Assembly: GCA_016191955.1 (NCBI GenBank)
Contig: JACPVC010000067.1
Coordinates: 1-32,318, forward strand
Reading direction: 5' to 3'
From: Chloroflexota bacterium
Lineage (GTDB): Bacteria; Chloroflexota; Anaerolineae; Anaerolineales; Villigracilaceae
DNA length: 32,318 nt
Of this stretch, positions 14,987 to 29,421 are shown piece after piece (the first letter of the stretch is position 1; each line of letters begins with the position of its first letter). Below the pieces are notes generated by a model. The model saw only the letters and a list, made by a program, of their open reading frames with translations, had not been told where the DNA came from and did not search any database. The position numbers and the translations under genes were made by a program.

Positions 14987-14991
14987 CATAG

Positions 14992-15244
14992 GACTTACGC
15001 AAAACCATAGTGTGCAAGCAAAACATGTCAGGTAATATGCTCCCAGCGCCGTCCTCGGCGCGGGATTTCCCTCATAAAACGCCGCCGAGGACGGCCGGCG
15101 GCTTGAGCAGAGATGCTGACAACCTTTGCTTGCACACAAACCCTACGAACAAGCCACGAATTTCGCGAATTCACGCGAATTGTTTAAAAATTCGTGACAA
15201 TTCGCGTAATTCGCGGCAAAAGATTTTGAACCGCGTAAGTCCTA
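14992..15244. repeat. MITE-like element with terminal inverted repeats
   Basis: TAGGACTTACGC at about 14991-15001 and GCGTAAGTCCTA at about 15233-15244 are inverted. The interior holds a large hairpin (GTGTGCAAGCAAA...TTTGCTTGCACAC; GCCGTCCTCGGCG...CGCCGAGGACGGC) and no long ORF. Confidence 0.65.
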
Positions 15245-15660: not shown

Positions 15661-15681
15661 CTTCATCCTCTCAAATAAAAA

Positions 15682-15715
15682 GAAGACGGCATGTCCGTCT
15701 TCTTTTTATCTTGAT
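15682..15715. terminator. Intrinsic terminator between cupin and radical SAM gene
   Basis: AAGAAGACGGCATGTCCGTCTTCTTTTT hairpin. Confidence 0.8.
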
Positions 15716-15720
15716 CATCT

Positions 15721-17169
15721 TTACAACTTCACAACCACTTCAGGGTCGTCTTGATATTTCAATAATCGCAGCCCCTCAAGGCGCACGGCTTCGGGGAATA
15801 AAGCCTTATAAATATTGCAATTCGGCGATTTGACGTCATACCGCCCAGTCGCACGGTGGGTAGTCAATGGACAGCCCCCAGCGCACCAATGTTTCCATTC
15901 GCAGGTTTTGCAACCTTCTTTTTCCAAGACAGGCAGGTTTTGGATCCCAATCTGGTCGGCTCGAATCAGCGCCAACGGATCAGCCGCATGCACGTCGGTA
16001 ACTGGTTTACGAATCTGCATCTGGCACTTGGCAACCTGCCCGTTCTGGTCGAAGACGAGATAGTTTTGCCCGACCCCGCAGGTATGGGTGTGGGATGCGG
16101 TCAAATTAGAGCGGTCTACGACTCCGCCGAGGAAACTGCGGCGTGGAGGGTTTTGTTCGATGACCTTAAATGCCGCCAGCATTCCATTGATGATCTTCTT
16201 TTCATCCAATTGCATGTCTTCGTGCGAAGCGGAGAGTTCATTCTCGCGATAGAAATTCAGGCTGAAGGGCATGTCCCTTTCCAAAATCCACGCCATTACC
16301 TGCGGCAAACCTTCTGCGGTACGACTGCTGACCGTCACTGAAATGCTGGGGACGAGTCCATGCGCAAGCGCCAGGTCCACGGCTTCTGACACATCGGCAA
16401 ATGTCCCGCGTCCGCCTGCGTAGGGACGGTGACTATCGTGATATTGCCCCAATCCATCCAGCGAGATCATCAGGCGCAAGCCAAGCGACTTCAACGTCTC
16501 GATCATCTCAGCAGTTAACAACGTTCCGTTGCTTAGTACAACGCCTTCCAACTCAATTCCATTTGCTTCCGAAAGTTGCCCGGCATAAGTATATAACTCT
16601 TCGATCAACGAGAAGCGCAAAAGCGGTTCCCCGCCCGCGTATTTAAGTTTCACTTGTTTGAAGCCATTTGCCAATGCCGAGCGGAAAATAGCATCCACTG
16701 CCGCCCGCCCGGTCTCTGAAGACATATCCTCGCGGACGTGGGGAAGGTAGCAATATGAACAGCGCAGGTTGCAGCGGTCCGTGAGGTGGAGCCAGGCACT
16801 TAGACTTGCAAAGAATGGAAATGATTCCGCTTTTTGCATATCATTTTCCACTGCCAAGAATCCTAGGTCAATCATTTTTTTGACAACTTCTTTATCCTCC
16901 TGGGGAGTAATATGTCTTGAATTAGAAAATGAGTTTAGGATGTTCCAACCCGTTGATGTCAAGATGGCTAGACCATTTCCAAGTTGGGGATTAAAAACCA
17001 ATTTATAGCCCGAGTAAATCTCCTGATAATCCAACTTCAAAGCTCTTATTAGAACACCTTGGAGAATCTGATTCTCAGGAACAAACGCGATCTTTGTTGA
17101 ACAGGCACAATCATTTTCTTCAAGTCTCAGATTCTGGGGCACGAGGATTTTCACTTTACGTGTTTTCAT
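15721..17169 (-). CDS. Radical SAM/SPASM peptide-maturase-like protein
   Basis: CX3CX2C motif (CNLRCSYCYLP), KYAGGEPLLRFSLIEEL, and C-terminal SPASM cysteines (CGVGQNYLVFDQNGQVAKCQM...CKTCEWKHWCAGGCPLTTHRATG...SPNC). The N-terminal region looks PqqD/RRE-like. Confidence 0.88.
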   Translation of the reverse strand: MKTRKVKILVPQNLRLEENDCACSTKIAFVPENQILQGVLIRALKLDYQEIYSGYKLVFNPQLGNGLAILTSTGWNILNSFSNSRHITPQEDKEVVKKMIDLGFLAVENDMQKAESFPFFASLSAWLHLTDRCNLRCSYCYLPHVREDMSSETGRAAVDAIFRSALANGFKQVKLKYAGGEPLLRFSLIEELYTYAGQLSEANGIELEGVVLSNGTLLTAEMIETLKSLGLRLMISLDGLGQYHDSHRPYAGGRGTFADVSEAVDLALAHGLVPSISVTVSSRTAEGLPQVMAWILERDMPFSLNFYRENELSASHEDMQLDEKKIINGMLAAFKVIEQNPPRRSFLGGVVDRSNLTASHTHTCGVGQNYLVFDQNGQVAKCQMQIRKPVTDVHAADPLALIRADQIGIQNLPVLEKEGCKTCEWKHWCAGGCPLTTHRATGRYDVKSPNCNIYKALFPEAVRLEGLRLLKYQDDPEVVVKL

Positions 17170-17213
17170 TACATCACCATATTGGATCCTTTTCAGTGTA
17201 ACTTCACAGAAAA

Positions 17214-20200
17214 CTACTCGTGTAAAAGTTTCTTTAACAACTGTTGTTCAAAAATCCTCTGCTCATCTGAGATATGATATTCATCATGAGTTCTTTCCAT
17301 GCTTTCTCGAACCCATTTCATTTCTTGAGAATTGAGCGTGGAAAGGCGCTTGTAAATATTTTCTCGCCCTTTCTTGAAGTCGCGAAAATCTTCACTATAT
17401 AAAGTGTTGTACGCTATTGACAAGGTCCAGTTATGCGCTGCCTGCTGCAATTTCTGCTTTGCCAATGGCGAATCTTTAGACGTATTCAGATATTCATCAA
17501 AGAACATCGCTCCAAGCAATACATTTGCCTTGCCAAGTTGAACCCAATGCCAAGGATTAAGCATTTCTCGAACGACCCCATGCTCCTTAGTAAATAGATA
17601 TTCATCCCCAATATGGTTACGTACATTCTTTGTAAGTATTCCTCGCGCCTTTTCAAAATCACCTGCGTAGTAATACAACCATGCCATATTAACTAATGCA
17701 TCAATGGCACGATATTCATATCCTGTTTCTCTTGCCACCTTCACTGCTTTCTCATATGCAATGCGGCTAAGCCCGATATGATGTATCCGCTCTGGGCGGT
17801 CCTTGGGTAAGGAATGTATCCATTCGCGGTATACACATCCAAGCTCAATATACGCCTCAACCAGACGCAACGGTTCTTTCTTTACCTTTTCTGTAAATAT
17901 CGATGCTGCTTCTTCTGCAAGTTCAACTGCTCGGGTGAGATATTCAAACTTCTTCTTTTCATCGTATACAAAAAGATCAGTGTTTGTCGTTCGCCGTAAA
18001 GATTCTGCCAGGGCAAGGCATGCCAATCCGATCCCGCGCGCCTCCTCCTGACGGCGGAATATCTCCAACGCCTGCTCGCAGTGGAATTGTGCGGTTTCCG
18101 GTTTCCCATACCGAATCTCGATCAGTCCCATCGTGTTGAGGCTAAGCCCGATCAGATATGGCTTTCCTAACTGGCGCCTCAAATTCAACGCATCTTTGCA
18201 ATGTGAAAGCGCTATATCAAAGTCACCCTCCTCCGCCTCTGCCCATGAAAGATCATTTAGCGTAAGCGCTGCCATCACCTCAAATTTCAATTCGCGCCAG
18301 AGTGGCACCGACATTAAGTACCACTTTGTAGCCCGCCCGAACTCACCTTGCATTCTCGATAAGTACCCGTGCCAATACAGAGCATATGCTTTTAAGAACT
18401 TGAGCCGCCATTGTTCAAGGCTATTTCTGGATGGCAATTTCTCTACAGCATTTAGAATATCGTTCAGCAAGACTCGTGCTTTCTCTTGTTCTCCGCCTCT
18501 ATATACCAATACCCAAGTCTCCCAGATTTTAAGTTCCAGATCCAAATAACTACCGGGATTCAATAGGTTCTTGCCGAATGTATTACGAAAATTCCCAGTT
18601 CGTCGTTCTGCCTCATCAAGTTTATCTTCTGTCAGGCTGGATCGGATCCAACGGATACCCATATGTGCTACTATGTCTTCCCAGGTCAGCCCTTCCACAG
18701 GCAAATACTTGTATGCATACCGCAATAATTCATCCTGCAAGAGCAACCAGAGGTTTTCTTCACGGCTTTGGAAGGCTTCCTCGGCATATTCCAGGTACAA
18801 CTTAAATCCATCTGTAGGGTTCACCCGCAGGGTGTAATATACATGCTCAACCTGATAAGCCTGCAAACGGGTACGCCTTGTGCTCAACCTCTCCTCCTCA
18901 CGAGCAATGCCCGCTAGGCTTAAGTGGTGCATTTTTTCCTTTTCCGGGGCATACCGCGTTGAATCCAGTTCCATTTCCTGTGTCTGGATTTCTCCACGTA
19001 TCTCCTTGATCTTCCATTCGTAGAAGTCAAGGATGTCTTTATCTATTCTTTCTTTCTGGGTTTTTATTGTCTCACTACGGTGCATCTCTTCCATCAGACT
19101 GTACATCTCGTCCTGGAAGAAGACCAGATCATCTGCGGAACGGATCTTCACAAAAGACAGCCGTTTCTTCGGCTGGCGAAGTTCATCAATGGATTCCTTT
19201 GCCTCCTGTTTATCTTCATCGCTGGGCTCATGATGCTGGCGAACCCATGCAAGCAGTTGCGCCCCCATTCCTTTCGGCGTCCATGATAATGCCTCCACCA
19301 CCTCGTCCGACGGGCGCAAACACTTCTGGATCGCCTCGATGATCCGGTCTCTCAGTTCCTTGCGGAATTCACCAGGTTCCCTTTGCTCGAGGAAAGGAAG
19401 TTCATCAGTGATCGCTACATAATCAATCAGTAACGCTAGCACGAATGGCTCACCCTGCGTCAGGTCATGGATCGTCCGCCTCGTTTCTTTGGGAATGCTC
19501 TGTATCCGCTTTGCACTTTGCGGGTTTTCCTTGCGGGTCGCTTTTGCCATTACATCGAAGTATTCCAGTGTCTCTTCAAGGTCAAATCTTGGCAGCGGAT
19601 ACGATATGACCTTTGCACCGGTTTCATTCAATTTATCCAAAAGTTCATCCGGCATTTTGGGCAGTTCGGGTGGACGTCCTGCAATCAGCACTGTTACATT
19701 TCGCAGGCGGCTGATCAATCCCTGTGCCAGCCAACGTGCTACCATGGTCAGGCTGTCCGGTAATCCCAATGCAGTTTGAGACGGGTCTTTTTGGAATCTC
19801 AGAACCTCTGCTGTATCGAACACCAGGACCACCTTATCATATTTCCATCCCAGTTCGTTCAACTCTTTCACAAACACCTCGATCATCTCCTGTTTCGAAG
19901 CCTCGGAAGGCGTTTCACCTTTCTCGTATTTTATGTGGATTAGTTGAGCACGTCTCTCAAGATATTTCTTGAAATGCTTTTTCCCTAGCGACTCTACAAT
20001 CTCATCGATCAATCCCTCTGGGTTGTGTGTGTGGGTGTGATACAAGTCCACCAGGCGGCTAACAATCAGGATATGTGTCTTTTTCTGCAACCGGTTTTGC
20101 TTGTTCCAGAACTTGACCACTTCCTCAAGCAGGCGGGTCTTGCCCATCCCGCCCCTAGCGGTGATGTAGATCACCTGTGTCTTTTTTGTTTTGCCCTCGA

Positions 20201-20297
20201 TCGCTTTTTGGATGATCCCCAGGATTTTCTTACGCCCCACCAGCTCGGGAGTCGCGCGGGCGCTGGCATATTCCACTCCATATCCGTGTATTTTCAT
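17214..20297 (-). CDS. STAND-like NTPase with C-terminal TPR repeats
   Basis: Walker A ARGGMGKT, Walker B-like KVVLVFDTAE; C-terminal TPR-like helical repeats (LTLNDLSWAEAEEGDFDIALSHCKDAL, LNTMGLIEIRYGKPETAQFHCEQAL). Confidence 0.85.
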   Translation of the reverse strand: MKIHGYGVEYASARATPELVGRKKILGIIQKAIEGKTKKTQVIYITARGGMGKTRLLEEVVKFWNKQNRLQKKTHILIVSRLVDLYHTHTHNPEGLIDEIVESLGKKHFKKYLERRAQLIHIKYEKGETPSEASKQEMIEVFVKELNELGWKYDKVVLVFDTAEVLRFQKDPSQTALGLPDSLTMVARWLAQGLISRLRNVTVLIAGRPPELPKMPDELLDKLNETGAKVISYPLPRFDLEETLEYFDVMAKATRKENPQSAKRIQSIPKETRRTIHDLTQGEPFVLALLIDYVAITDELPFLEQREPGEFRKELRDRIIEAIQKCLRPSDEVVEALSWTPKGMGAQLLAWVRQHHEPSDEDKQEAKESIDELRQPKKRLSFVKIRSADDLVFFQDEMYSLMEEMHRSETIKTQKERIDKDILDFYEWKIKEIRGEIQTQEMELDSTRYAPEKEKMHHLSLAGIAREEERLSTRRTRLQAYQVEHVYYTLRVNPTDGFKLYLEYAEEAFQSREENLWLLLQDELLRYAYKYLPVEGLTWEDIVAHMGIRWIRSSLTEDKLDEAERRTGNFRNTFGKNLLNPGSYLDLELKIWETWVLVYRGGEQEKARVLLNDILNAVEKLPSRNSLEQWRLKFLKAYALYWHGYLSRMQGEFGRATKWYLMSVPLWRELKFEVMAALTLNDLSWAEAEEGDFDIALSHCKDALNLRRQLGKPYLIGLSLNTMGLIEIRYGKPETAQFHCEQALEIFRRQEEARGIGLACLALAESLRRTTNTDLFVYDEKKKFEYLTRAVELAEEAASIFTEKVKKEPLRLVEAYIELGCVYREWIHSLPKDRPERIHHIGLSRIAYEKAVKVARETGYEYRAIDALVNMAWLYYYAGDFEKARGILTKNVRNHIGDEYLFTKEHGVVREMLNPWHWVQLGKANVLLGAMFFDEYLNTSKDSPLAKQKLQQAAHNWTLSIAYNTLYSEDFRDFKKGRENIYKRLSTLNSQEMKWVRESMERTHDEYHISDEQRIFEQQLLKKLLHE

Positions 20298-20300
20298 GGC

Positions 20301-21497
20301 TTAACCCTCCAGGTCATTGCAATTCAGTCCCGCCGATTGCAGGCGCTGTTTATGGTGGTTGGATTTGTTCCAATACAGATCCGAGTTATACTTCTGCCCC
20401 CACTCCTGATACATCCCCAGCGCTGTGCAGTGCAGTTTCGTCCACAATTCTGGGTCGCGCATCTGAAGCTCCTTCTCGAACAGATCTCGTATGCTTTCAT
20501 CCATCGCCCAGTGTTTCTTCTCACGATCCCAGTCTACTAATCCACCAGGACCGACTTGGATCCGATTCAATTCCAAAAACACTTCCTTAACCCTGCCCTC
20601 GTCCCACCCAAAACTAAGATTAGGATGACTTTGAAATAATGGAACCACATCCTCCTGGAAAAACCCTCGCAGGATGGAAATCGCCTCCAACATTGGGTAA
20701 TACCTCTCTTGAATTTCGTTTTCCTTCTTTATATCATCCAACAATGACTCGACAGCCTTTGTTTCATTTGGAATATTGGGTGGGTCGCCACTTACGTGCT
20801 TCACCAGCTTGACAGTATTTCCCGGCACTCCATTTCCCATTTTCCAAATCTTTTCTGCCAATTCCCCAGCCCCCGGTTTTAAGGATTCCATGTGAATTCT
20901 AGTTTTTTCCTCATCAAATAGAGGCAGCAGGAAGGTATTGAAAGGTGTGGGGCGTATGGCAAAATCGTTAAACACGGGAGGCTTCGATCTGCCTGCCGTG
21001 ACTAGAATAGCACGATCATTGTCATGAAGAAACTTAACCAATAGATAATCTTCAAGCTCTCGCAAATCCTCTTGAGAAGGAATGTTGATCTCATCCAAAA
21101 ACAAGATAGTTATCTGATTTTTTCCATTAATTTTTCGTTGAACATGTGAGACAAACTTCTGCCTATTTTGACTGTCATCCTTTTTGAGCACCATATCTTT
21201 GCAATCGCAGAATTCGTTATGTACTGCGACCAATAGCTCATTGATAAAACCCTTTTCTCTTTTCTTCAAAGAGTCCAGTGGAATGAGCAAAGATGCATAC
21301 TCAGCCCGTTCAATAGTTAATTTGTGTTTGCATTTCTCGAGCAAACAGCTCTTCCCAATCCCGGAGGGACCGACAAAATGAAAGACCCGCTCTTTTGGAG
21401 CAAATGGCTTTCTCTTTGCCAAGTCGAAAACCCTGTTCACAACAAGACCAACTTCTTTTTCGCGATTGATGAAATTGTCAAGAGCAAAATCTGACAT
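20301..21497 (-). CDS. STAND-like AAA ATPase
   Basis: Walker A GPSGIGKS, Walker B ITILFLDEIN, sensor-like ILVTAGRSKPP. SD-like GGGGAGG before the start. Confidence 0.8.
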   Translation of the reverse strand: MSDFALDNFINREKEVGLVVNRVFDLAKRKPFAPKERVFHFVGPSGIGKSCLLEKCKHKLTIERAEYASLLIPLDSLKKREKGFINELLVAVHNEFCDCKDMVLKKDDSQNRQKFVSHVQRKINGKNQITILFLDEINIPSQEDLRELEDYLLVKFLHDNDRAILVTAGRSKPPVFNDFAIRPTPFNTFLLPLFDEEKTRIHMESLKPGAGELAEKIWKMGNGVPGNTVKLVKHVSGDPPNIPNETKAVESLLDDIKKENEIQERYYPMLEAISILRGFFQEDVVPLFQSHPNLSFGWDEGRVKEVFLELNRIQVGPGGLVDWDREKKHWAMDESIRDLFEKELQMRDPELWTKLHCTALGMYQEWGQKYNSDLYWNKSNHHKQRLQSAGLNCNDLEG

Positions 21498-21592
21498 TCG
21501 AAAACCTCCCCATCGCAGTAATGCGAGTGGCGATAGCCCTAATTAGGCTGTCAATAATGGTTACACCTACCGGTAGAACCGGTTTGGGCAAA

Positions 21593-22897
21593 TCATTTTT
21601 TCACAGAATACTCTCTGCGAATCCACTCACGCACTGCTGTAACATCCTGGGGGGTAAGTTTTTCGTGTACCTGTCCGTCCTGGATATGGCAAACAAATAA
21701 ATAATCCATTGCCTTGATCAGGCTGCGCGGGCTGAGTTTCTTATGCCGGCGCAACTCACCGATCAATACCTCTTCTAGTGAACGTTCAGAGGCTCGCAGG
21801 GCGCGGTCACTGATAGCCGCAAGGCTGTCAAACTTGCCACCGCTGGCTTCTTGCAGGCGTCGCCGAATGACTTCACTGAGCGCATCTGCATCCCACTTTA
21901 TAGTAATGATTTTGCTCTTCAAAGTCAATGGACGAAAATTAGTCGTTTGGTCTACAAATTGTTTTAGCTCTTTAGGCAGGAAATATTTTGTATAGACACC
22001 CCTATTGGACCAGGAAATCGCATTGTCTAGTAGCCAAGATATGGAAAGTAGTGCATTATGAGGGTTGTTTTCAGTTTCAGGAAAAGCATCTACACCGTCT
22101 ACTAAAATATAAATCGCCTCAAATTTCAATTTATTAAGGATTAGGTCAAATAGTGCTTCAAGCCTATGTTCTTCATCCGGTTTTCCCGGTTCGGGAATAT
22201 AGCGGGTTAGTTTTTTGTAAAGATACAGGATATCTTCTTTATCCGGCGGGTTGGGGAGCGAACGAGCAGTTGGGTCAAAGGCGGCAAGGATTGGTTCTAA
22301 GCTTCCTGCGGTCTTCATTTGATCAAAATAAAAAGCAATGGGGAAATCTAAATCCCAGGATATGGTTTGGATAAAGATATTTCTGAGAGCATCATTCATT
22401 TCGTCGAGCGCGTAAGGTGAATAGGCCAAATAAATGAACAATTCACGAGCGGCATAACGAAGCAAATCAGCCTGTTGACGAAGCGCCCGACTTTTCTCCC
22501 CTTGGGAAACACCCGGCTCGGTGGGCTTGAAAATGATGGGGAAGATGCGGCGTTTGTTCCAGCCGGCACGGCATTCACGTGCCAAACGGACACGAAAAGC
22601 GGTCTTACCTCCACCAGCAGGCGCAAACACAAATGAGATCTGATCGCCGTTTATTTTTTTAAACTGATTATGATCTATTAAGTAAAAGGGAATGAAAGGA
22701 TCTTCGCCCGCGTCTATGTATCCGAAAGGATTTAGGTTCAATCCCATATGAGTGAGCCATTGTTTTAGGTTATCTGTTGGAAGGGTAGTTCTTTTATTTG
22801 ACGACGGCATAACATGAAAACCTGATCGAGCAGGCACCACAGGGAATGGATCGGATTGTTGGATGGTGATTTTCGGTTCTACTAAAGGCACTACCAT
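21593..22897 (-). CDS. P-loop ATPase
   Basis: Walker A APAGGGKT, Walker B AIYILVDGVDAF, C-terminal IKWDADALSEVIRRRLQEA...SPRSLIKAMDYLF. Confidence 0.75.
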   Translation of the reverse strand: MVVPLVEPKITIQQSDPFPVVPARSGFHVMPSSNKRTTLPTDNLKQWLTHMGLNLNPFGYIDAGEDPFIPFYLIDHNQFKKINGDQISFVFAPAGGGKTAFRVRLARECRAGWNKRRIFPIIFKPTEPGVSQGEKSRALRQQADLLRYAARELFIYLAYSPYALDEMNDALRNIFIQTISWDLDFPIAFYFDQMKTAGSLEPILAAFDPTARSLPNPPDKEDILYLYKKLTRYIPEPGKPDEEHRLEALFDLILNKLKFEAIYILVDGVDAFPETENNPHNALLSISWLLDNAISWSNRGVYTKYFLPKELKQFVDQTTNFRPLTLKSKIITIKWDADALSEVIRRRLQEASGGKFDSLAAISDRALRASERSLEEVLIGELRRHKKLSPRSLIKAMDYLFVCHIQDGQVHEKLTPQDVTAVREWIRREYSVKK

Positions 22898-23024
22898 AAG
22901 TGTTCCTGTTCATCTCCCAGTTTGGCAAATCTGCAAAGAACGCTCGGCATGATTATTGTAGTCTTCATCCTGTTCGCAATATTAAACCTGTCTTGCACTA
23001 ATCTTACAGAAAACTGACAAGGTT

Positions 23025-24392
23025 TTAGTCGTCCTCGTGGAATGCCTGCAGTGACAGCCGGTAGCCGCGATCCTTCTTCGTGGTGAGGAAAACTGGGTTC
23101 TTGGGTAACGGTTCGAACGTTTTCCTCAATCGGAAGATGGCAGTGTTGACCAGGTCTTCATATTGGAAGACATCGTCAGATGTAGCATCTCCGCCCTGTC
23201 CCTGGTTGACAAAGGGTAGGTAGGCTTTATTGTAAATATCGCGTTTGGAACAGTAGCGTCCTTCGTTCTTGTGGAGGTAGGAAAAGAACGCCAACTCCTC
23301 CTGCGACAGGGTGTATGGCAATTTCATCCCAACCACGATCTGACTTGTTTCCAGATTGAACCTGAGCCGCAGGGAAGACCGTTTACGGGCGGCAGTCCAT
23401 TCTGTTTCATCGAGTACCCATTCTCTCTTTTCCAGCCTGGAGAGACCTTCAGCGTTGTAGATTTCCCAGAAGGTAGCAAAAATGGGGCGGAAGTACTCCA
23501 GCCAACCACGTGGGGACATACCGCCGCATCCTTCCAGCCAGGGGAATAGTTGGTTGGCAGGGTAGATTTGATCTGCCCGCATCTGCCCATTATCCAGGGC
23601 GAAGCGAAGACGCCTCTCAATCATGGCCTGGAGTTGTTTCGCATCCCATGCAATGCGCGTCTCTGATGCTCGTTCCTTTCTTATAGCGGTGGTTTCCCCA
23701 AGCTCGCCTTCTAATTCGAGCGGAAGGAATATTTTCAGATGAAAATTGGGAATTTCAAAAAAAGATAATGTGGAGAGGATGGACTGCAAGATGTTGGTTG
23801 CTGTCTGTTTACGTGTCTCAGAGTTCAAATCAATCTGATCCACCATAACCCATAACCCGCCAGGGAAGCCGATTTGTTCCAGACTCTTGATCAGTTCGAC
23901 TGCGATCACATTGAGAGGCGTATTTTGATTCGTGAGACGTATTTTCAGCGACGGAACTTTTTTGGCGAGGATCGTCTTGTTTTCACTTGGCAGGAAGCGG
24001 TGAAGGAAATCGATCAGGAAACTATATTTTGCCCCATCTTCGGCGCGCTTCTTGAAATCATTGGGGAGTTCCTCAAGGACCTGGCACGCACAGGCGGAAA
24101 GTATGCTTGTAAATTGGGCGTTTGCCAGAACAGTGTTGGCAGGCTGTGGGTTTTCTGTGAAATCAGGTGTCCAGTGGACAGGTAGGCATTCCAACTGGTT
24201 ACGGGCATGCTCTTCTAATGCGAGCATAAGGGTGGTCTTGCCTGTGCCCGGTTTGGCGTAGATCAAATTGGAATGAGGTCCCTTGAAGAAATCGAAATCT
24301 GGCGGCGGGACAAAGGCATGTTGAACCAGCCAGGGCATTTCTGCCTCGGCGGTTTTGGTCATGAAAACGCTCAAGCCTTTGCCAGTGGTCAT
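23025..24392 (-). CDS. P-loop ATPase fused to C-terminal OmpR-type winged helix
   Basis: Walker A AKPGTGKT, Walker B GGLWVMVDQID. C-terminal LSQEELAFFSYLHKNEGRYCSKRDIYNKAY...FQYEDLVNTAIFRLRKTFEPLPKNPVFLTTKKDRGYRLSL fits Trans_reg_C. Confidence 0.8.
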   Translation of the reverse strand: MTTGKGLSVFMTKTAEAEMPWLVQHAFVPPPDFDFFKGPHSNLIYAKPGTGKTTLMLALEEHARNQLECLPVHWTPDFTENPQPANTVLANAQFTSILSACACQVLEELPNDFKKRAEDGAKYSFLIDFLHRFLPSENKTILAKKVPSLKIRLTNQNTPLNVIAVELIKSLEQIGFPGGLWVMVDQIDLNSETRKQTATNILQSILSTLSFFEIPNFHLKIFLPLELEGELGETTAIRKERASETRIAWDAKQLQAMIERRLRFALDNGQMRADQIYPANQLFPWLEGCGGMSPRGWLEYFRPIFATFWEIYNAEGLSRLEKREWVLDETEWTAARKRSSLRLRFNLETSQIVVGMKLPYTLSQEELAFFSYLHKNEGRYCSKRDIYNKAYLPFVNQGQGGDATSDDVFQYEDLVNTAIFRLRKTFEPLPKNPVFLTTKKDRGYRLSLQAFHEDD

Positions 24393-24474
24393 AGAATTAT
24401 GCTAATTGTACAGCCAAGTTGCTTCGAAGAAAACCAATGTGCAAATAAGAAACTTTACTTTTCTCGCCAGTTTA

Positions 24475-25679
24475 TCACTCACAATTCATTCCAGCCAATT
24501 GCAGACACCGCTGATGATAAGTGGATTTATTTCGATATATATCCGAGTTGTATTTCTCTCCCCAATCCTGATACATCTCAAACGCCGTACAGTGTAGTTT
24601 CCTCCACAGCTCCGGCTCGCGCATCTGGAGTTCCCTTTCAAACAGGTCTCGTGTACTCTCCTCCATGATCCAGTTCTTCTTCTCCTGATCCCAGTTCACC
24701 AATCCACCGAAGCCGACTTGGATCCGATTCAGTTCCAGAAACACACCCTTAACCCTGCTCTCATCCCATCCTACGCTGAGTTGCGGGTGTTTCTCAAATA
24801 AGAGAGCGATATCCGCCGGAAAAAATCCTTGCAGGATAGAGATCGCCTCCAGCATCGGGCGGTATCGTTCTTCGATTTTGTTTGTTTTCTTTATATTATC
24901 CAGCAATGAATGGACAGCCTGCGCTGCATTTGGAATGTCTAGTGGATCGCCAACTATGTGTTGCACCAGCTTCACGGTGTTTCCGGGGACGCCGTGTCCC
25001 AGTTTCATGACCTTTCCAGCCAATTTTCCCGACCCTGGTTTTAAGGATTCCATCTGCTTGCTGGTTATCTCCTCATCAAAGACAGAAAGAGGAAAAATAT
25101 TGAACGGCCTAGGACGCAGAGCAAAGTCGTTGAATATGGCAGGTTGCGATCTGCCTGCTGTGACTAAGACAGCACGGTTATTATTGTGAAGCAATTTCAC
25201 CAACAGGTACTCTTCAATCTCTTGTATATCCTTTTTAGAAGGAGCATTGACTTCATCCAACAAAAGGACTGGGAAAATCTGTTCATGCAAAGAAATAGCA
25301 CGCGTGATCATCGAAGCATATTCCCAGCGTGAAGCCAACGGCTCTTTCAAGACTGGATTAGCAAAAACTTTTTGAAACTTGCAAAATTCCTCATATACTG
25401 TTTTGAGGAATTCATCAACGAATCCTTGCTTAATACCTTTGAGTGCATTCAGGCGTACAAAGATCGGGGCAACGTTTCGTTTTTGTATTCTTCGGCAAGG
25501 AGAAGTGAATAGATTCTTTTCAACAAAGAACTTTTTCCGATTCCCAAAGGTCCTACGAAATGGAATACCCGCTCCTTCGAATCAAACGGCTTTCCCTTTA
25601 ACATGTCGGAAACCCTGTTTGTAACGAGACCAGTCTCGTAGTGGCGGTCGATGAAATTATCCGAGTCAAAGTCAGACAT
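24475..25679 (-). pseudogene. Frameshifted paralogue of the STAND-like ATPase at 20301-21497
   Basis: ORFs 25449..25679 and 24475..25350 are colinear with the 398-aa protein. Manual translation joins them as EEYKN/RNVAPIFVRLNALKGIKQGFVDEFLKTVYEEFCKF... after a -1 change near the A5 run (25480-25484). Confidence 0.8.
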
Positions 25680-25682
25680 GGT

Positions 25683-28010
25683 TCACTTCTTTCCTGCAAG
25701 ACCAGAGAGCACCTGGTCAAAATCGCTCTTCTTCAAAGTTTCCCCGTCTTGAATCTGTAGCCCATCCATATAGTCCATCAGGCGAAGGAGAAGCCTCACT
25801 AGTCGACGCGGCGAAGAATCCGCCGCCTGAACCAGATTCCCAGCAGGGTTATCCACGCTCCTATCCCACAGGGTCTCGAACTTATATTTCATTTTCCTAT
25901 TCAGCAGTTTCATCAACTGGTCGTTATTCCAGGTCAGGTCGCCAGCATGGCGGATGCCGCCAAGATCACCGACTGCTTCTTTTGCAGTGAGAGGAGCAAA
26001 AATATTAACGGCTACATTCTGCCTGGATAGTGACACCGCCAGTCCTGCCATCTCTTTTATCTTATTAACCACATCTTCACGAGGTGAGGAAGCGGGGATG
26101 TCCCACAAAAAACAGATTTGGTCGAATCCAGACGGGTACGCAAAATTGAGAAAACTAAGCATCTCATCCTTGGTCATTTTCGTTAGAGTTTTCGACGGCT
26201 TGAACTTTCTGATGTATTCAATCACCTGCTCGATGTCAGTGATGCTGCTGTTTATGGAAGAACTATAGAGATTGAAACGCAATGTCTCCAAATTACGGGC
26301 ATGCCACAACATTAGCCTTCCCATTGCGGTTTTTCGGGAATCAGAGGAGGTAATGAACTTCCGCGGGTTATCGGCGGTGAAATTGATCAGAGCGCGGGCA
26401 ATCGTTCCCATGCTCCAATCTTTTAATTCCACTCCCGATTCGTAAGGTGCGTATACTGGAAAGACGTCTGCTTTTGTTGATGTTGTATATTGATCCATCA
26501 GCCATAAAGTAGAGGATGTCTTCCCCATTCCCTCCCCGCCGAATACGATCAGCGTATCGGGTTTTTTGATCTGCCCGAAAACAGGAAGTTCCATCACCGA
26601 CTGTTTTGACCGATCCTCCAACTCCGCATATTCAGAACCCAGCGAGAAATTGGCGTCCACCGGTTCAGAAAAACATGCAAACAGCCAGCGCAGAACCTTA
26701 TCTGGTAATTTTCTTTCCCTGCCCGATTCTATTTTCCGCCAATCAGTATCCGGTATCAAAACTTCGAATATCGTGGTTGCGGATCTATCGTCAGGGAAAT
26801 TTCTTCTATGATCTTCAATAATGTCGTGGATATTGGCGTCACGAAGCAATTGTCCACCTTCTTCAGGTGCAAAATTATTGAAAATTATAGGCAGATTTTC
26901 GTGCTGAATAGCAAAATCATGAAGCATATCTGTAACGAGTGGTTTCAACTCGTTCCAGCGCTTGCTCACGGTCAGCAAACATTGTGCTTCTTCCTCTGTC
27001 AGAGGATGGTTTTTACGATCATCTTTGCAAACTAATTTGCAGAATGGAGCGAGCGACCGCGAATGATAAAAGTTGTCCACTTGCCCATACGAATTAGACA
27101 CGTCACAAACCGCATGCAAAACCTCTGCTGCTCGTTTCGCGTCAAAGTAGTGATTTCTGCTTTTGAGATGTTCCAGAATGATCTGCTGTAATTTGTCTTC
27201 CCAGCCAAATGTTTCCACCATTTTTTTCTTAAGCGAAAATTCCGAGTCTTCCGCTTCATCGCGATCCAGCTTTGAAAAACCATCCAGTGTATCAACGGGG
27301 TTTTCTTTCCATTGTTCACGGAACTCATTCTTTCTTTTTTCTCGATCTTCCCTGGAACGATCCTGTTGTGTTTTCGTATATTGCATCACTAGTGTCCCAG
27401 CCCCGGAAAGTAAACTGGCAATAAAGAGAATCATTGCATTTCTCTCGTTTGCCGGATCGTTGACAATGGATTGGAGGGCTATCCAGGAAATTGTTTCTAC
27501 TCCAATTTCAACTGTTACAGAATCCTGCATTTGCAGCGAGGTAATCACGACGTTCTTGCGAACCAATAATTTCCGTCCGTGTTCCGACCGGGCGTTGACC
27601 AGGCTGATCTTGATTTCTTCCGGTTCCATGTCATTGCCTGAGCCTGAGGAAATCGCCTCCAGTTGGGTACTATATTCCTGTGCTTTTGGTTGTTTAACAA
27701 TAAGCCCCGGGGGAATATCAATTGTGAAAGTAGCCTGGTCTCCGTTTGGGTTGCCAGCGAGGATCAATATCATCTCTGTGGATTTATTGTCCCCTAGGAT
27801 CAGATTGGGGTATATCACCCGCAGAGTTTGTCCATTGGTTAATTCTATTTTTTCAGTTTCTATTGAGTACGTTTGAAATGGGATATAGAAGGTCACTAGG
27901 GACCAAAGGGTCAACGCCACAATTGAAAATACTGCAACAAAGAAAGAAGCGACTAGAAACCCTTTTTCCAGCCAGGCAGATAGCTTCCAAGATGATAGAA
28001 ATTTTTTCAT
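25683..28010 (-). CDS. Membrane-anchored P-loop NTPase with extracytoplasmic domain
   Basis: TM1 (FLVASFFVAVFSIVALTLWSLV), about 150-aa likely external region, second TM (MILFIASLLSGAGTLVMQY), charged cytoplasmic linker, Walker A GGEGMGKT, FDQICFLWDIP. Confidence 0.78.
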   Translation of the reverse strand: MKKFLSSWKLSAWLEKGFLVASFFVAVFSIVALTLWSLVTFYIPFQTYSIETEKIELTNGQTLRVIYPNLILGDNKSTEMILILAGNPNGDQATFTIDIPPGLIVKQPKAQEYSTQLEAISSGSGNDMEPEEIKISLVNARSEHGRKLLVRKNVVITSLQMQDSVTVEIGVETISWIALQSIVNDPANERNAMILFIASLLSGAGTLVMQYTKTQQDRSREDREKRKNEFREQWKENPVDTLDGFSKLDRDEAEDSEFSLKKKMVETFGWEDKLQQIILEHLKSRNHYFDAKRAAEVLHAVCDVSNSYGQVDNFYHSRSLAPFCKLVCKDDRKNHPLTEEEAQCLLTVSKRWNELKPLVTDMLHDFAIQHENLPIIFNNFAPEEGGQLLRDANIHDIIEDHRRNFPDDRSATTIFEVLIPDTDWRKIESGRERKLPDKVLRWLFACFSEPVDANFSLGSEYAELEDRSKQSVMELPVFGQIKKPDTLIVFGGEGMGKTSSTLWLMDQYTTSTKADVFPVYAPYESGVELKDWSMGTIARALINFTADNPRKFITSSDSRKTAMGRLMLWHARNLETLRFNLYSSSINSSITDIEQVIEYIRKFKPSKTLTKMTKDEMLSFLNFAYPSGFDQICFLWDIPASSPREDVVNKIKEMAGLAVSLSRQNVAVNIFAPLTAKEAVGDLGGIRHAGDLTWNNDQLMKLLNRKMKYKFETLWDRSVDNPAGNLVQAADSSPRRLVRLLLRLMDYMDGLQIQDGETLKKSDFDQVLSGLAGKK

Positions 28011-28725: not shown

Positions 28726-29421
28726 ATGTATCAGCAATATCCAAACCCAATCACATCAGCCGCCAAATGGATCTTCTTCGGCTTCTTCGGGATTATCCTG
28801 ATGGGATTTCTATTAGGGGCGAATCTCAAGGAAGCTACCTGGCTCAATTCCGGAATCGCGGCCGCCCAAGCTGAGAAGACAAGGATGGAGACCGCCCATC
28901 AAAGTGAAATGAATAAATTGCAAGAGCAATTGACTGCAGCGCAAACTGACGCCGAAATTCAGCGGATTAGAAGGGAACAGGAACGACTGAACGCTCAGCA
29001 TGCGCACGATCTCCAGGTCTTGAATCAGGATATCGCGAATCGTCAGCGCTGGGCAGATTTCAAGATCAACGCTGCAACTATTTTGAGCATTGGAGCTGGG
29101 GTTTTAGCAGCCCTCAGTATCTTTACCCTGGTTGTGGCGAAGTCGGTTGCAATGGTACGCGCTGTTCCGAGTGCAGTGCCTGTTATCCCTGCACGCCGGA
29201 CTGTCCCTGAAATCCAGAAAATTCCCTCAGTGCCGGAGCGAGAACCATATGATCCCTGGGCTTCGCCAGATTATCGCCGGCAACAACGCGATGCGGCAAA
29301 AAAGGAAGAACGGAAAGAGCGTGAAGAAGTGCAAGCACTTGCAAATCGGATGAAATCATTTAGTGATCCTGCGCGGATGAGTAGCGCCGAGTATTACAAA
29401 CATCCGTTGGCTGGTGATTGA
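28726..29421 (+). CDS. TM-coiled-coil-TM protein of unknown function
   Basis: TM near N-terminus (WIFFGFFGIILMGFLLGA), heptad-rich segment, second TM (AATILSIGAGVLAALSIFTLVVA), charged tail. GGAG before ATG. Confidence 0.75.
   Translation: MYQQYPNPITSAAKWIFFGFFGIILMGFLLGANLKEATWLNSGIAAAQAEKTRMETAHQSEMNKLQEQLTAAQTDAEIQRIRREQERLNAQHAHDLQVLNQDIANRQRWADFKINAATILSIGAGVLAALSIFTLVVAKSVAMVRAVPSAVPVIPARRTVPEIQKIPSVPEREPYDPWASPDYRRQQRDAAKKEERKEREEVQALANRMKSFSDPARMSSAEYYKHPLAGD

Follow-up and report, generated by a model that had tools for sequence, protein, structure and literature searches.

A probable conflict module of Chloroflexota that joins STAND-type NTPases to a radical SAM/SPASM enzyme

Peptide processing by radical S-adenosylmethionine (SAM) enzymes with a SPASM domain has been linked to genes for TIR proteins and for AP-ATPases with TPRs, both as part of VMAP ternary systems and, in actinobacteria, as standalone forms (Kaur et al. 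2020, PMC7159879). These FxSxx/VMAP systems, found in multicellular prokaryotes including Chloroflexi, are predicted to have a role in biological conflict (PMC7159879). In the theory developed around EADs, the swapping of effectors marks systems that counter invaders (PMC7159879, PMC8195603), and DS-41 is among the systems validated with phages (DefensePredictor, PMC13092281). Here, we analyzed a stretch of 32,318 nucleotides (nt), hereafter the window, from a Villigracilaceae member of the Chloroflexota (contig JACPVC010000067.1 of assembly GCA_016191955.1; 4.34 Mb, 92.7% complete). At positions 15721-28010, the window contains a block of seven genes, in which six NTPase genes precede a gene for a radical SAM/SPASM enzyme (rSAM). 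Sequence comparisons suggest that this block is probably an undescribed self-defense circuit, in which switch-like ATP-binding proteins, similar to the immune receptors of animals and plants, and a peptide-modifying enzyme are inherited together across one phylum.

The seven genes lie on the minus strand and are transcribed in the order membrane NTPase, frameshifted AAA gene, winged-helix ATPase, related ATPase, AAA3, STAND-TPR protein, and rSAM (Table 1), with intergenic gaps of 3, 82, 127, 95, 3, and 44 nt. An initial annotation, made from the DNA letters alone, had described the open reading frames, the strand, the gaps, the six distinct Walker A sequences, and the radical SAM/SPASM gene exactly as we find them. 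It had also proposed a conflict module with a peptide-modification arm, a reading that the conserved neighborhood, the co-occurrence of the winged-helix ATPase with rSAM, and the effector and adaptor domains of homologous loci now support. Its count of six NTPase genes stands, although some of the six are related to one another: the frameshifted one is a duplicate of AAA3, to which it is 60% identical in one comparison and, when compared by frame, 56% identical in a first frame (369 columns) and 50% identical in a second (96 columns). This duplication and a conserved cysteine motif in the N-terminal tail of rSAM go beyond that annotation.

Conservation of the gene neighborhood had been set beforehand as a test, and the result agrees with the initial proposal. 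We used rSAM, the slowest-evolving member of the block, as the search probe and classified the neighbors in 71 loci (68 unique) using profiles that we built from the proteins of the window; metagenome-assembled genomes (MAGs) make up much of the comparison set, to which related genomes contribute loci that are not independent of one another. A STAND-TPR gene adjoins the rSAM gene in 59 of the 60 testable unique loci, 53 times upstream on the same strand and 6 times in convergent orientation. Six loci have no STAND-TPR gene beside rSAM; in five of them, the contig ends on the side that matters, and the sixth, L151, is a true orphan (L and G numbers are our handles for loci and genomes). Most of the 27 loci containing these ATPases keep the order winged-helix ATPase, ATPase, (AAA3), STAND-TPR, rSAM, the position of the second ATPase is conserved in about 20 loci, and AAA3 and STAND-TPR form a single polypeptide in L010 and L030. 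Around unrelated rSAMs, a STAND-TPR gene was found in 2 of 56 control loci, and one of the two, L053, is a genuine member: this Pseudanabaenales MAG contains a truncated rSAM with an ESDCDCACS tail and a STAND-TPR gene on the same contig, and it represents a cyanobacterial member that our sample of the phylum missed.

The rSAM family is present in 43 of 399 Chloroflexota genomes, and the 24 clear named loci in GTDB species genomes are mostly from this phylum. Outside it, we found the family in 1 of 245 genomes of the phylum of the Nostoc locus and in 1 of 248 of the phylum of the Actinomycetota locus, each time in the seed genome. Searches with AAA3 or the membrane NTPase within the order Anaerolineales returned almost no matches because these genes diverge fast; across the phylum, the AAA3 search recovered loci with the same neighbors. 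The loci were picked by rSAM similarity, and the opposite direction, that of the module without rSAM, was tested through the winged-helix ATPase only. Its profile matched 15 of the 399 Chloroflexota genomes, 14 of which also contain rSAM (Fisher p 4.6e-14); in 13 of these 14, the two genes share a contig and are no more than about 11 kb apart. Two genomes, one case each, point to a module that needs radical SAM activity. G064 carries a complete module without rSAM on one contig (L283) and a lone rSAM with two GDCACDSP repeats on another (L151), a separation that suggests function in trans. In G160, which has no family rSAM, the module is followed by another radical SAM/SPASM gene (L284:9753-11087), with mycofactocin/PqqE-like scores and a C terminus that looks PqqD-like by eye, a possible nonorthologous replacement. 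The neighborhood conservation with its 59 of 60 adjacencies, the control loci, and the genome co-occurrence rule out that unrelated NTPases and an rSAM came together by chance, an idea that found no support after testing and that we regard as extremely improbable. We consider it very probable that rSAM acts with the STAND module.

In homologous loci, the genes upstream are replaced by effectors and adaptors supported by Pfam matches. The effectors comprise TIR (L020, 1.6e-27; L022, 8e-27; L028, 9.2e-20; L137, 9.4e-12), trypsin (L017, L026, and L029, 4.7e-27), CHAT (L134, 1.7e-32; L141), and SIR2 (L136, L138, and L145) domains, as well as a caspase domain (7.8e-13) fused in L024 to the counterpart of the membrane NTPase. 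Adaptors are represented by EAD7 (L032, L141, and L284), bDLD1 (L019), and EAD9, which in L017 occurs on both the trypsin and the neighboring NTPase. Because its L024 counterpart is fused to caspase, the membrane NTPase is the best candidate for the effector of the window version; it might also be a sensor. It has counterparts at the same position in L010, L012, L014, L037, L164, and L283, and its two hydrophobic segments (residues 12-45 and 191-211) bear out the membrane anchor proposed in the initial annotation; its AlphaFold model, built from a four-sequence alignment, has a predicted local distance difference test (pLDDT) score of 39.

The module also exchanges parts. In the rSAM tree, the window groups with L130, which belongs to the same family, and with L014. 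The rSAM cores of the window and L130 are 85% identical, whereas their STAND-TPR proteins share no more than 26% identity and are preceded by different genes; in other pairs with rSAM cores 83-86% identical, the STAND-TPR proteins are 73-86% identical. Therefore, after the two lineages separated, rSAM became associated with another STAND module, which would be a clear case of an accessory enzyme passing between different STAND modules. Loci of an immune-like kind are expected to diverge fast and to exchange parts in this way.

Most probably, then, the module functions in biological conflict. The interchangeable effectors and adaptors that characterize EAD-type conflict systems are found in the homologous loci. 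Several observations weigh against this reading. None of these domains was recognized in the window copy, which has no recognized toxin domain, and its flanks look like housekeeping genes (threonyl-tRNA synthetase, GH1, SpoU, and histidine kinase) with no evident defense island. In the TIR, CHAT, and trypsin loci, the NTPases fused to effectors give at best a weak match to the AAA3 profile; therefore, we call them position equivalent rather than orthologous, and they may be analogues. A PADLOC search of the NTPases gave weak partial matches and no significant model (the rSAM matched viperin over its radical SAM domain, 9.3e-16 over 117 residues), and a search of viral contigs and plasmids found no close rSAM relative, the best matches being about 24-30% identical over most of the length, on which ground we rejected a prophage or plasmid cargo. 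The housekeeping flanks, the winged helix on one ATPase, and a weak similarity of the TPR region to HaaT, FimS, and AfsR-type models would also suit STAND proteins that, like AfsR or MalT, regulate signaling or transcription in a nonimmune process such as development or stress, with the winged-helix ATPase as output. We find this unlikely, since TIR, SIR2, caspase, CHAT, and trypsin effectors and EAD/bDLD adaptors interchange in sister loci and since presence is patchy (43 of 399 genomes) and accompanied by module exchange.

The CX3CX2C motif, the seven conserved cysteines of the SPASM domain (C364, C382, C420, C423, C429, C433, and C451), an RRE-like domain, and a predicted CteB/anSME fold assign rSAM, at the level of the superfamily, to the peptide-modifying radical SAM/SPASM enzymes. 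The best named family is the PapB ranthipeptide maturase (NF047865, 145.7 bits, 1.9e-42), whose cutoff of 340 is not reached. In the AlphaFold 2 model (overall pLDDT of 86.6, with residues 14-20 and 22-27 below 50), the tail is followed by a three-strand helical domain, then by the radical SAM domain, and then by SPASM. We infer that the three-strand helical domain has an RRE/PqqD-like fold, and the profile match to CteB begins inside it. The best PDB profile matches are CteB structures (5wgg, 1.5e-41, and 5why), the top Foldseek matches of the model are CteB, TigE, and anSME, and ChlB is also among the nearest structures, all of which modify peptides or proteins. Peptide modification is the likely activity of rSAM.

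The N-terminal region of the family, about 20-60 residues long, is poorly conserved except for a D-C pair, usually extended to D-C-x-C, as in the ENDCACS of the window, the GNDCAC, EDDCAC, ESDCAC, and DIDCAC of L014, the ETDCF...ETDCAC of Roseiflexus, and the three DCR repeats of L150. D-C occurs in 48 of 56 tails (mean of 15.3 and maximum of 26 in 1000 shuffles) and [DE]CxC in 35 of 56 (shuffle mean of 1.2, maximum of 5); the corresponding counts in unrelated rSAMs are 3 and 2 of 47. C21 is invariant across 22 aligned rSAMs, as are the catalytic cysteines. The motif is present in 0 to 5 copies, and the tails diverge faster than the cores (for example, core 97/tail 50 and core 92/tail 44). With its repeats, its fast evolution, and its place beside an RRE-like domain, this Cys/Asp peptide resembles the core of a ribosomally synthesized and posttranslationally modified peptide (RiPP) fused to its maturase. 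We found no other DCAC precursor in the loci and, with the exact DCAC pattern, none that was convincing in the window's own genome. The motif, the predicted disorder, and this lack of another precursor make the tail a plausible, if not quite likely, substrate of rSAM; against it count the tails that have EC or QCDAC in place of DC (e.g., L147/L149 and L020).

Pairs of cysteines in a CxC arrangement are common redox and metal motifs. The main rival to the tail as substrate keeps the conflict switch and makes the DCxC tail a redox-active or metal/cluster-binding element, the true substrate being STAND-TPR or another protein; rSAM would thereby respond to oxygen, iron, or SAM status, for example, through a ligand to an open auxiliary Fe-S site. 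The invariance of C21 would fit such a function, and the seven SPASM cysteines could leave a coordination site free. We nevertheless hold it to be rather doubtful, given that the number and position of the motif vary while its flanks diverge quickly, that several tails with DCR or EC have a single cysteine, and that the tail is unpacked in the AlphaFold 2 model. The locus could also be a RiPP cluster for a secreted or signaling ranthipeptide, with the NTPases as accessories for immunity or export: rSAM is nearest to peptide maturases, and TPR proteins of the HaaT/FxsT type go with some rSAM peptides (NCBIfam name; PMC7159879). Such a cluster is quite unlikely in view of the DCAC-motif search, which found no separate precursor in the loci and no convincing one in the own genome, and of a Pfam scan of the seven window genes, which detected neither an exporter nor a peptidase.

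Our current working hypothesis, which we consider more plausible than not, is that the block forms one functional module, an NLR-like (STAND) conflict circuit with a radical SAM arm. STAND-TPR would be both switch and scaffold, kept off until a trigger binds, and, once activated, would oligomerize with AAA3 and, in the window version, with the two related ATPases and the membrane NTPase. One of the two ATPases might bind DNA through its winged helix, and the membrane NTPase would provide the output by damaging or sealing the infected cell, a task that a TIR, SIR2, caspase, CHAT, or trypsin domain would fulfill in sister loci. The rSAM/SPASM enzyme would modify Cys/Asp in a peptide, for which its own N-terminal tail is the most likely candidate, with chemistry of the thioether type, and the modified tail (or, failing modification, the unmodified one) would be the ligand that sets the STAND switch, either licensing or restraining it. 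More tentatively, we propose that rSAM may modify its RiPP-like tail in cis or between subunits and that the modified tail may serve as a ligand or guard signal for the switch. During infection, the switch could then be tripped by a loss of SAM, iron, reductant, or protein synthesis.

Table 1. Features of the gene block and its surroundings, with window coordinates and supporting matches
Feature	Position	Strand	Evidence or remark
Radical SAM/SPASM peptide-maturase-like enzyme (rSAM), 482 aa	15721..17169	-	PF04055 6.4e-17; motif CNLRCSYC
rSAM architecture	15721..17169	-	Disordered N-tail + RRE-like domain + rSAM core + 7-Cys SPASM
rSAM N-terminal tail, residues 1-30	17080..17169	-	Motif E-N-D-C-A-C; DCAC codons 17101-17112
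Putative RRE/PqqD-like domain of rSAM, residues 40-115	16825..17052	-	Three-strand then helical pattern, AlphaFold 2 model
STAND NTPase with C-terminal TPRs, 1027 aa; proposed switch/scaffold	17214..20297	-	Walker A ARGGMGKT, Walker B VVLVFD, GEP motif
AAA3, AAA/STAND-like NTPase, putative partner of STAND-TPR	20301..21497	-	GPSGIGKS; AAA_22 27.9 bits vs cutoff 27
P-loop ATPase distantly related to NF053860 (DS41_1 anti-phage) and NF047389 (Sll1717)	21593..22897	-	APAGGGKT; 1.9e-24 and 2.2e-16, both below cutoff
P-loop ATPase with C-terminal winged helix	23025..24392	-	AKPGTGKT; NF053860 3e-20 and NF047389 4.6e-19, both below cutoff
Frameshifted AAA3 duplicate, pseudogene or assembly error	24475..25679	-	GPLGIGKS; one frameshift near codon 60
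Two-segment membrane protein with C-terminal NTPase domain, 775 aa	25683..28010	-	GGEGMGKT; weak NF053860 1.9e-6
Two-transmembrane-segment coiled protein, possible accessory	28726..29421	+	Divergent from window operon

Two further calls of the initial annotation are borne out by the domain matches. The STAND-TPR protein has the P-loop, Walker B, GxP-type motif (here GEP), and superstructure repeats of a STAND NTPase with TPRs; in the Pfam scan, it matches TPR_12 at 1.7e-15, with AAA_22 at the cutoff and NACHT below it. The winged helix fused to one ATPase is real (PF00486, 29.9 bits, cutoff of 26.2). With matches that all lie below cutoff, this ATPase, the one that follows it, and the C terminus of the membrane NTPase make up one broad group related to NF053860/NF047389.

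Between the rSAM stop codon and a convergent cupin gene lies a perfect inverted repeat, AAAAAGAAGACGG-CATGT-CCGTCTTCTTTTT (15677-15707), which could be the end of the operon; it is absent from the list of a terminator scan. Promoter matches within the block show no excess (20, versus 18.3 after shuffling). Farther on, at 14989-15244, the window contains a noncoding element resembling a miniature inverted-repeat transposable element, with perfect 12-nt terminal inverted repeats (TAGGACTTACGC/GCGTAAGTCCTA) flanking 232 nt, parts of which recur at about 70 sites of this assembly with an identity of roughly 70-97%. The surroundings of rSAM vary among loci. Homologs of the two-transmembrane-segment coiled protein lie just downstream of rSAM in L037, L156, L164, and L165, and the protein occurs in 11 of 60 family genomes, several times apart from any rSAM found. 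In L012 (G303), three to four tandem 266-nt repeats, at least 90% alike, separate the convergent rSAM and STAND-TPR genes (L012:3586-4507). In the clade of L143, L145, L147, and L149, the gene that immediately follows rSAM (L143:7441-9135) encodes a nucleoside-phosphorylase domain (PF01048, 2.2e-21, tested in L143) and is possibly a further effector or a nucleotide sensor.

If our reading is correct, NLR-like switches would have a radical SAM peptide maturase as their most conserved partner, showing how posttranslational peptide chemistry can feed an immune receptor, and the bacterial receptor would be set by a self-modifying enzyme; the tail motif offers a directly testable candidate substrate. 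The module would also be a phylum-wide conflict system for the Chloroflexota, in which defense has been little studied.

A search of the open-access literature found no description of this gene combination, the only precedent being the FxSxx/VMAP systems, and membership of the FxsB, PapB, DS-41, and Sll1717 families was ruled out by scores below the cutoffs. With DS-41/Sll1717-type ATPases, the two related ATPases of the window share matches to NF053860 and NF047389 (Table 1), but the gene context is different and the scores are 86.5 and 72.6 bits (27.1 for the membrane NTPase) versus a cutoff of 370 for NF053860 and 60 and 68.9 versus 75 for NF047389. The PapB/CteB-type ranthipeptide and sactipeptide maturases have the same architecture of RRE-like, radical SAM, and SPASM domains; the window rSAM differs in scoring far below the PapB and SCIFF cutoffs, in its cysteine motif in cis, and in its STAND NTPase neighbors. 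The STAND conflict systems based on EAD and bDLD adaptors (PMC7159879, PMC8195603) have in common with the present loci EAD7, EAD9, and bDLD1, the TIR, caspase, trypsin, and CHAT effectors, and the STAND switches, whereas the constant partner here is a radical SAM/SPASM enzyme, and the phrase "radical SAM" is absent from PMC8195603.

The nearest precedent is FxSxx-COOH/FxsB, which combines a radical SAM/SPASM gene with a TPR-containing AP-ATPase (STAND) and TIR effectors. The analogy drawn in the initial annotation is apt as a functional precedent but does not extend to membership, the window rSAM belonging to a different family (64.2 bits against FxsB TIGR04269, cutoff of 370). The vWA, MoxR, VMAP, and metallopeptidase components are absent from the seven window genes in the Pfam scan, the other loci not having been scanned exhaustively. 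No FxSxx peptide was seen, and the 44 nt between STAND-TPR and rSAM and the 60 nt between the rSAM stop codon and the cupin gene leave no room for one at the operon end; the FxSxx motif was not searched for genome-wide. In turn, the window adds paired ATPases, a membrane NTPase, and a DCxC tail on rSAM, and its peptide, unlike that of the FxSxx systems, seems to be part of the enzyme itself, in cis.

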